Shown: positions 33,144-34,883 of the stretch, piece by piece
Layout of the letters: every line of letters begins with the position of its first letter
Position numbering within the stretch: the stretch's first letter is position 1
Source of the DNA: Hyphomicrobiales bacterium 4NK60-0047b
Lineage (GTDB): Bacteria; Pseudomonadota; Alphaproteobacteria; Rhizobiales; HXMU1428-3
Assembly: GCA_040367435.1 (NCBI GenBank)
Contig: BAABWY010000006.1
Location: 1 to 64,000 of the forward strand
Length of the DNA: 64,000 nt
Direction: 5' to 3'
Position numbers and translations under genes: made by a program
Notes under the pieces: model-generated
Database searches by the model: none
What the model saw: the letters and a program-made list of their open reading frames with translations, nothing else
Told to the model about the DNA's origin: nothing

Positions 33144-34883
33144 ATGAAAATTGCCATTTACGCCCGCTATTCCACAGACATGCAAAGTGAAGCCTCAATT
33201 GAGGATCAAATTCGCATTTGTAAAATAAGAGCTGAAAAAGAAGGCTGGGATGTCGTTCAGATTTATACTGATTACGCGTTAAGTGGCGCAAGTATGATAC
33301 GCGCAGGAATTCAAGGGCTGGTGCAGGATGCACTTGCCCAGAAATTCGATATTGTTCTTGCTGAAGATTTGGATCGCATTTCCCGTGATATGGAAGACAT
33401 CGCCGGGTTCTATAAACGAATGGAATTTTCCAATATCAAGATATTCACATTATCTGACGGAATAATCACGGATTTACATATTGGATTAAAAGGTACCATG
33501 TCTGCAAGGTTTTTAAAAGATTTAGCAGATAAAGTCCGGCGTGGTCTTCGGGGGCGGGTAGAAAACGGTAAATCTGGCGGTGGTAAATGCTACGGTTATG
33601 ATGTTGTGCATAGAACAAACCCCAATGGCGGCATAGACGTTGGGGAACGGAAAATAAATAGTGAACAGGCTGCAGTCGTAAAGCGAATATTTTTGGAATA
33701 TCTCAAGGGGCGTTCGCCGAAGAAAATTGCCCTGGGCCTAAATGAAGATGGTATTTCCGGTCCTTCTGGCAGACCATGGGGGCCAAGCACGATTTACGGA
33801 AACCGTGAACGCGGAACGGGCATTCTCAATAACGAACTCTATATTGGGCGTATGATATGGAATCGTTTGAAATATGTGAAAGATCCTGACACCCGCAAAC
33901 GAGTATCTCGGTTAAATCCAAAAGAAGAGTGGGTTATTAAGGAAATTCCTCATCTTCGCATCATTGAGCAAGAGGTATGGGATCGCTTAAAAGAGAAGCA
34001 AGGTGAATATAGTAAAAAGGGCAACCCGAAAAATACAAAGAAGCGTCCTCCTAAATTACTTTCATATCTCATAAAATGTGGTGTTTGTGGTGGGGGGTGC
34101 TCCATGGTGTCAAAAACCCACTATGGCTGTTCGACAGCACGGAACAAGGGTACATGTAATAATCGTCGTACGATCAAGGCTGAAACCCTAGAACTGTCAG
34201 TTATAAACGCTCTTCAAACCTATCTAATGGATAAAAAGCTTTGTGCCAAGTTTTGCCGAGAATATACAGAACATTTGAATGCACTACGTCGCCAGCATAA
34301 TTTTGCGCGCAGAGACTATGAACTGGAACTTGCCAAAATCAAACGTGAAAATGAAAAGCTTGTTGAAGCTATTCTAGATGGCGTTTCAGGAGCCTCACTC
34401 AAAGAAAAAAGTGAATATATCGTCAAGCGCCGGGAAGAGTTAGAAGAAATTCTCGAAAATATTGAAGAAGCGCCTGTTATTTTCCACCCGAATATGGCTG
34501 ACCGCTATCATGAGGAAGTTTCTGGGCTAATAAAAGCTTTGAATAATCAGGACCATCGGGAAGAGGCTGCAGAACTTATTCGCGCCCTTGTTGATAAAAT
34601 CGTATTGACGCCAACTGAAGATAATACTGGTCTTTCAGTTGATCTCATAGGTGATCTAGCAGGTATTCTGCTGATGGCCACAAAAGGCGACAAATTGCTT
34701 ACACAGAGCGGTTTGTCATTCATTAACCAGTCTCGACAAGACGACGATTCCGTAAATAAGGATGATATGGTTGCGGGAGTACGCAACACCTCAAACCTAT
34801 CGCCTAAAAATGATGGAAAAAAAGAGTGCAAGGTTTCTATGGTTGCGGGGGTAGGATTTGAACCTACGACCTTCAGGTTATGA
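33144..34883 (+). CDS. Large serine integrase of the element
   Basis: 579 residues: resolvase domain with catalytic Ser10 (YARYSTDMQS) and EDLDRISRD; recombinase domain (SGPSGRPWGPSTIYGNRERG, LYIGRMIWNR); zinc ribbon CGVCGGGCSMV...CSTARNKGTC; then a long coiled coil (about 375-450). It should carry out integration and, with a directionality factor, excision. The last 14 residues (MVAGVGFEPTTFRL) come from reading the antisense of tRNA-fMet. In the circular form residues after V-A-G-569 would be replaced by the 47 codons at 183-323, giving 616 residues. Confidence 0.93.
   Translation: MKIAIYARYSTDMQSEASIEDQIRICKIRAEKEGWDVVQIYTDYALSGASMIRAGIQGLVQDALAQKFDIVLAEDLDRISRDMEDIAGFYKRMEFSNIKIFTLSDGIITDLHIGLKGTMSARFLKDLADKVRRGLRGRVENGKSGGGKCYGYDVVHRTNPNGGIDVGERKINSEQAAVVKRIFLEYLKGRSPKKIALGLNEDGISGPSGRPWGPSTIYGNRERGTGILNNELYIGRMIWNRLKYVKDPDTRKRVSRLNPKEEWVIKEIPHLRIIEQEVWDRLKEKQGEYSKKGNPKNTKKRPPKLLSYLIKCGVCGGGCSMVSKTHYGCSTARNKGTCNNRRTIKAETLELSVINALQTYLMDKKLCAKFCREYTEHLNALRRQHNFARRDYELELAKIKRENEKLVEAILDGVSGASLKEKSEYIVKRREELEEILENIEEAPVIFHPNMADRYHEEVSGLIKALNNQDHREEAAELIRALVDKIVLTPTEDNTGLSVDLIGDLAGILLMATKGDKLLTQSGLSFINQSRQDDDSVNKDDMVAGVRNTSNLSPKNDGKKECKVSMVAGVGFEPTTFRL
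34766..34781 (+). repeat. Additional att-like sequence in the integrase gene
   Basis: TATGGTTGCGGGAGTA differs by one base from 34838-34853 at the tRNA end, exactly 72 bp away and so in frame (M-V-A-G-V occurs twice). Its last bases match the tRNA and not the left end of the element. It may be the scar of an earlier integration or a tandem att site. Confidence 0.55.
34840..34851 (+). other. Right attachment core in tRNA-fMet
   Basis: TGGTTGCGGGGG, the complement of the tRNA 3' end with CCA, identical to 172-183. The tRNA remains intact on this side. It lies inside the integrase frame. Confidence 0.72.

Follow-up and report, generated by a model that had tools for sequence, protein, structure and literature searches.

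How does an integrase avoid reversing or repeating its own reaction? The question is central both for mobile elements and for the tools built on serine integrases, and it is raised anew by a locus in Hyphomicrobiales bacterium 4NK60-0047b. We analysed the first 64,000 nucleotides of contig BAABWY010000006.1 (assembly GCA_040367435.1), here called the window. Among named genomes, Methyloligella-like MAGs of the Hyphomicrobiales are nearest to this one. Positions 172-34851 of the window appear to be a mobilizable element of about 34.7 kb, inserted into a tRNA-Met gene by its own large serine integrase. Large serine integrases usually have attP, the attachment site of the circular form, outside the integrase gene. 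The explanation that we consider somewhat probable here is that attP lies inside the gene, and that integration swaps an element-encoded, often degron-like tail for one ending in GFEPTTFRL, so that the enzyme differs between the circular and integrated states.

What does the integrated gene encode? Its product ends in KVSMVAGVGFEPTTFRL and contains, above cut-off, the Pfam domains PF00239 (Resolvase), PF07508 (Recombinase) and PF13408 (zinc ribbon); the catalytic serine, S10, is invariant across 12 homologues. Given the span of the tRNA-Met gene called by ARAGORN on the opposite strand (Table 1), the last 13 residues lie within antisense tRNA-Met, and 10 of them lie beyond the shared attachment (att) core. 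At the element's other end, the left core reads on in the integrase frame as VAG and 47 further codons, with TAA at 324-326. The integrated gene therefore ends VAG-VGFEPTTFRL and the circular one VAG-DCNQSDLLGQRKEKTQRKQHPRDVFNNLFHSNNMEIVTEHPTYRFEK, each followed by a stop codon. A first-pass annotation, made from the letters of this DNA alone, had described the frame running through the core into the tRNA, the 10-residue tail and the 47-codon continuation in the same register; each description was borne out.

The two ends of the element also define its attP. Joining the sequence left of the right core to that right of the left core gives AAGGT-N6-GGTTGC-N8-GCAACC-N6-ACCTAC, a palindrome that has the GG at 182-183 as its centre. 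The inferred site appears to have the usual serine-integrase layout of inverted repeats around a central dinucleotide shared with attB. The circular junction would join TGGTTGCGGGGG to ACTGCAACCAGAGC (34851 to 184). In the circular form the integrase gene would read through attP into the element-encoded tail, 50 codons from the core in the window. Crossover at the central GG would replace all downstream sequence, leaving the old tail stranded at the element's other end.

Does such a longer integrase exist? A 47-codon open frame is not by itself rare, and the in-frame continuation could be fortuitous, or an artefact of the core being shared. We regard this as very improbable. The family-wide coding signal described below speaks against it, and natural genes that cross an unbroken attP in complete replicons and tandem elements largely refute it. 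Wherever we found attP unbroken, the integrase reads through it (loci L209, L206, L199, L198 and L021). L209, on the Paracoccus versutus plasmid pTAV4, encodes a full-length integrase ending in GGNFLSALFRTAA (ALFRTAA, then stop). L206 (WP_010511773.1), on the 159-kb conjugative Komagataeibacter plasmid NZ_CP023038, ends in GFVERLVA. The others are L199 (genomes G549 and G641), L198 (Rhodovulum marinum) and L021 (G006:C44). With the protein-coding character of the family tail, these genes uphold the earlier proposal that integration splits a longer integrase gene.

Not every intact attP marks a circle. We considered and rejected the idea that all such copies are circular forms; R. marinum at least looks like a tandem junction. 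Its contig G065:C17 carries cores at 65814, 27874 and 2249 (minus strand), apparently from two such elements arranged in tandem, and G006:C44 may also hold a tandem junction. Within the R. marinum array, the tail of the inner integrase comes from the left end of the neighbouring element; the outer integrase (L077) ends in a partial tRNA rather than a complete one. Both ends of six further elements lie on one contig (Table 1); in each, the integrase ends in FRL. G324:C2 70704-168777, with the circular tail LFQSAA, is a likely further case, its integrase extending past the locus read.

Is the circular-form tail a protein? We searched 347 and 385 genomes with the attP palindrome pattern TGGTTGCGGGNNNNNGCAACC, which matched in 29 and 30 of them, respectively; the reversed control matched in none. 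Removal of wrong-orientation readings and near-duplicates left 64 nonredundant attP arms. Because DNA-level information in the arm is near zero after about 33 nt, codons past that point can be tested for coding, and the pairwise codon-position test was limited to codons beyond the palindrome. Conserved VAGxRNxxxL peptides were considered as a sign of protein selection and rejected, that segment being the attP DNA palindrome.

Across 13 disjoint pairs with tails of equal length, differences at codon positions 1, 2 and 3 numbered 21, 22 and 42 (P = 0.0016). In the 60 nt that follow the stop codon the differences are spread evenly (184, 177 and 175), and identity falls from 78% to 31%. A stop at codon 16-18 occurs in 27 of 64 frame-0 tails against 4 of 63 in each of the other frames (P = 6e-9); TAA, TAG and TGA are all used. 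Ends resembling the ssrA tag (LF[QR]AAA or KLAA) occur in 17 of the 64 tails, the window's own not being one of them; the other frames give 0/63 and 1/63 (Fisher P = 2.5e-8). Transfer-messenger RNA (tmRNA) tags in the hosts themselves end in QAA, RLAA, VAVAA, VALAA, NAVAA or AAAA. In 18 AA-type tails, the L, F and Q/R codons before the alanines, which were not selection criteria, vary at the third position (1.6-1.9 bits) and are better conserved at the other two. From the codon-position bias, the drop in identity at the stop, the placement of stops and the ssrA-like ends we conclude that the family tail is protein and that, beyond attP, selection at the protein level acts on it across the family.

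Do other integrated copies carry the tRNA-encoded tail? Among 76 distinct homologous integrases (35-99% identity), 53 do, nearly always in the frame of the window integrase, so that the tail described in the first-pass annotation recurs. At least 48 of the 53 are VAG..FE...FRL in tRNA-Met; the remainder use other tRNAs with different cores (VVAEEGLEPPTRGL, VVGPAGLEPATKRL and MVGPPGLEPGTRPL). The linkers preceding the core show no relation to one another, either in sequence or in length, and the frame is nonetheless the same. One exception to the frame rule is L136 (G356:C204), in which antisense tRNA-Met is read in a different frame, beginning WLRGQDLNLRPSGYEPDELPGCSTP. Close homologues that stop naturally around residue 560 and lack any likeness to 183-323 would have spoken against the first-pass annotation; instead, the two closest relatives have left ends encoding the same 50-residue tail and stop, and the homologues share the tRNA-encoded tail. 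Three homologues lie on viral contigs, two with tRNA-Met-encoded tails and one, L084, ending in VVAEEGLEPPTRGL; a search of a phage collection gave distant integrase homologues only. For a sister family with the core TGGTAGCGGAGGAGGG, left ends were not found in the five genomes searched. Two coding configurations and their spread across Alphaproteobacteria are evident at the level of sequence; the split of the integrase gene is real, general and selected.

What might the swap accomplish? The first-pass annotation suggested that the two forms could differ in activity or stability and so form a built-in switch; the degron-like signature that would account for one is present in about a quarter of relatives and absent from the window element. 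A precedent is found in the mycobacteriophages BPs, Brujita and their relatives, whose integration-dependent immunity places attP inside the repressor gene; the unintegrated BPs repressor is a protease target and the integrated repressor is stable (Broussard 2013, as described in PMC4557955 and PMC8092301). As far as those accounts go, the likeness is close: attP sits inside an open frame, the C-terminus is cut short or altered on integration, and the unintegrated form has an ssrA-like degradation tag (-AA) in BPs and an ssrA-like end in some relatives here. Some such phage systems also gain a few tRNA-derived residues. By analogy with this repressor geometry, the circular-form integrase would be short-lived and the integrated form stable, and we infer that the tail determines the stability of the enzyme. 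The ssrA-like tail of many relatives would feed ClpXP or ClpAP, so that new enzyme made from the circle would not last. This would limit re-integration, allow transfer and favour escape after excision. The integrated form would give a stable, ready enzyme awaiting a directionality factor for excision. As a hypothesis for the family, a stability switch is a good one, with chances that we put near even. More tentatively, we propose a widespread self-referential switch: the circle would encode a protease-tagged, short-lived integrase whose own integration fuses the gene to antisense tRNA and removes the tag, stability both reporting and controlling the integration state.

Several observations weigh against a degron swap. 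About three-quarters of the sampled tails are not of the AA type, and many of them finish on a different hydrophobic residue (V, I). Most attP arms came from the pattern search, and only a minority are linked to an integrase on one contig. Since 13 of the 76 homologues have different ends, the tail is not essential. The window tail itself ends in HPTYRFEK, which is not degron-like. Its 50 codons and stop are the same in three congeneric elements, with no indel, and substitutions within this trio are even over codon positions (4/4/5 and similar), so that coding selection is not significant there. By eye alignment, an LF motif is kept in the window tail (NNLFHSNN) where R. marinum has LLFNAYDI and G006:C44 has LLFQARDI. 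These segments may be run-on versions of LF[QR]A.. before a stop; the window element's tail would then have lost or replaced its terminal degron-like residues.

A second reading is a role in recombination. The swap would be real and the circular tail a genuine protein end, serving, for instance, attP synapsis or contact with a directionality factor; the tRNA tail would disable or alter this after integration. Protein-level selection extends to many tails that are not of the AA type, the last residue of frame-0 tails is A, V or I in 40 of 64 cases (19/63 and 16/63 in the other frames), and the window tail lacks a degron. By construction, the tail cannot be present without attP, or attP without the tail. 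Yet LF[QR]AAA and KLAA ends recur anywhere from 16 to 48 residues from the core and match host ssrA tags, as would be expected of a C-terminal signal more than of a binding surface, and the tail region is predicted to be disordered. We judge a recombination role unlikely.

Could both tails simply be neutral in the window element? In an AlphaFold model of modest quality, built from 12 sequences, the predicted local distance difference test (pLDDT) is below 50 over integrase residues 514-579, so the swap would alter an unstructured tail. Both tails are predicted to lie beyond the folded body of the enzyme, which is where a degron would sit. The same model fits a fold that ends near residue 513, an attP that overlaps the 3' end by chance and 47 codons that are a leftover open frame; the substitutions in the window trio show no coding constraint, and homologue ends are diverse. 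Against this, none of the three left ends has a frameshift or internal stop, although shuffled substitutions give an internal stop in 34-57% of cases, and the coding signal in the wider family is strong. Neutrality of both tails seems to us distinctly improbable.

If the tail swap is as we propose, the DNA rearrangement itself edits the enzyme and leaves a heritable record of its state in the C-terminus. The prediction is of two defined protein forms, one recombination event and one protease pathway. The tail swap also explains why many database recombinases have odd VAGVGFEPTTFRL peptide ends, and it carries a warning: an integrase cloned from an integrated copy comes without its native C-terminus.

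How does the family compare with known systems? In the BPs type, as far as the sources cited above describe it, it is the repressor gene that is split, and the integrase, a tyrosine recombinase encoded separately, is either tagged in both states or untagged in both; in the present family the serine integrase gene itself is split. This arrangement occurs on conjugative or mobilizable elements and on plasmids in Alphaproteobacteria, and antisense tRNA supplies the new tail. The integrase resembles those of phiC31, Bxb1 and Ccr in its domain set, long C-terminal helical region, short core and palindromic attP, but its target is a tRNA gene. Its similarity to CcrB is far under the family cut-off (126 vs 900 bits). 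The phage phiPam-6 of Paracoccus aminophilus is inducible, uses a serine recombinase and integrates in tRNA-Met with a 17-bp att repeat (PMC3925955). This repeat is the reverse complement of the core read into by L015, L084 and L202 (VVAEEGLEPPTRGL; the VVAEEG group). Neither a split integrase nor an altered C-terminus is reported in the phiPam-6 paper (PMC3925955). In the literature searched, whose coverage left out most subscription papers, we found no description of a serine integrase with a tail that changes on integration. This counts as weak evidence that such a tail change is novel.

The integrase gene seems to lengthen by addition of att units. A third copy of the core, with one mismatch, lies at 34769-34779; 0.47 matches to the 11-mer with one mismatch are expected from shuffles, and none of 100 shuffles reached 3. 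Fossil att copies lie in frame in the 3' end of the integrase in the window (34769-34787), L020, L021, L022, L115, L122 and L123, 51-132 nt before the live core and always at a multiple of 3. Some are attP-like with AG in place of GG at the centre; others resemble decayed tRNA (GGTTGCGGGGGCAGGATCTAAT). In L212-L215, L222 and L223 an inverted repeat, AAAAACCCCGC...GCGGGG, lies within the coding sequence of the linker just before the core and looks like a terminator or hairpin.

Where does the element begin? The core recurs at 172-183 beside a mobC-like gene and a TraA-type relaxase, and on this basis we take 172-34851 to be a mobilizable element; integrase, relaxase and both att ends are all present, as befits an integrative and mobilizable element. 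The contig starts just 171 bases left of the attL core. The left ends of two congeneric elements, G006:C165:15881 (L071) and G003:C6:186451 (L072), match the window with 85-90% identity over 153 nt right of the core and 24-34%, the chance level, left of it, which supports a boundary at the core. The 171-base left flank had no match in congeners that would give the empty chromosomal site; in the congeners G004 and G007 the tRNA-Met is intact and the element absent. The MobC-like gene has no Pfam or NCBIfam match, and a similar gene follows attP in G006:C44 and G065:C17.

Table 1. Features of the window element, and related elements with both ends on one contig
Feature	Position	Strand	Basis or remark
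Large serine recombinase (integrase), integrated form	33144..34883	+	579 aa; tRNA-encoded end VAGVGFEPTTFRL
tRNA-Met(CAT), target gene, intact despite insertion	34840..34916	-	ARAGORN
attR core TGGTTGCGGGGG; inferred crossover dinucleotide GG at 34850-34851	34840..34851	+	Direct repeat of 172-183; centre of inferred attP symmetry
attL core TGGTTGCGGGGG; inferred crossover GG at 182-183	172..183	+	Direct repeat; congener comparison
P arm, outer motif AAGGT (34830-34834), mirror of P' ACCTAC; inside integrase frame	34830..34839	+	Sequence
P' arm, GCAACC (187-192) and ACCTAC (199-204), completing the attP palindrome	184..204	+	Conserved in 69 attP arms
Displaced integrase 3' end, VAGDCNQSDLLGQRKEKTQRKQHPRDVFNNLFHSNNMEIVTEHPTYRFEK then stop; would rejoin integrase if the element circularises	174..326	+	Same length and stop in left ends of G006:C165 and G003:C6
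Internal attP-like palindrome GGTTGCGGGAGTACGCAAC, centre AG not GG, inside integrase gene, in frame	34769..34787	+	72 nt before live core; likewise L020, L021, L022, L115
MobC-like accessory gene adjoining attL	384..791	+	Function inferred from position; sequence comparison
TraA-type relaxase/helicase, marks mobilizable element	792..3599	+	TIGR02768 608 bits above cut-off; PF03432
Both ends on one contig, G355:C44	9151-115080		Circular tail IPKLAA, stop
Both ends on one contig, G108:C3	107362-229956		Circular tail LFRAAA, stop
Both ends on one contig, G246:C92	84360-8589		Circular tail LFQAVA, stop
Both ends on one contig, G316:C1	4782615-4822704		Circular tail SLRVSI, stop
Both ends on one contig, G677:C14	7069-110740		Circular tail IPRA, stop
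Both ends on one contig, G621:C6	124334-214536		Circular tail SEGV, stop

The element also carries cargo. Positions 4198-9020 and 9655-10314 encode an RND efflux pump with an HlyD-like adaptor and a cation-efflux protein. A Fic-domain protein lies beside a TrlF-like AAA ATPase (16993-18159 and 18465-20492; a weak NCBIfam match, below cut-off), and the two are possibly a defence or regulatory pair.
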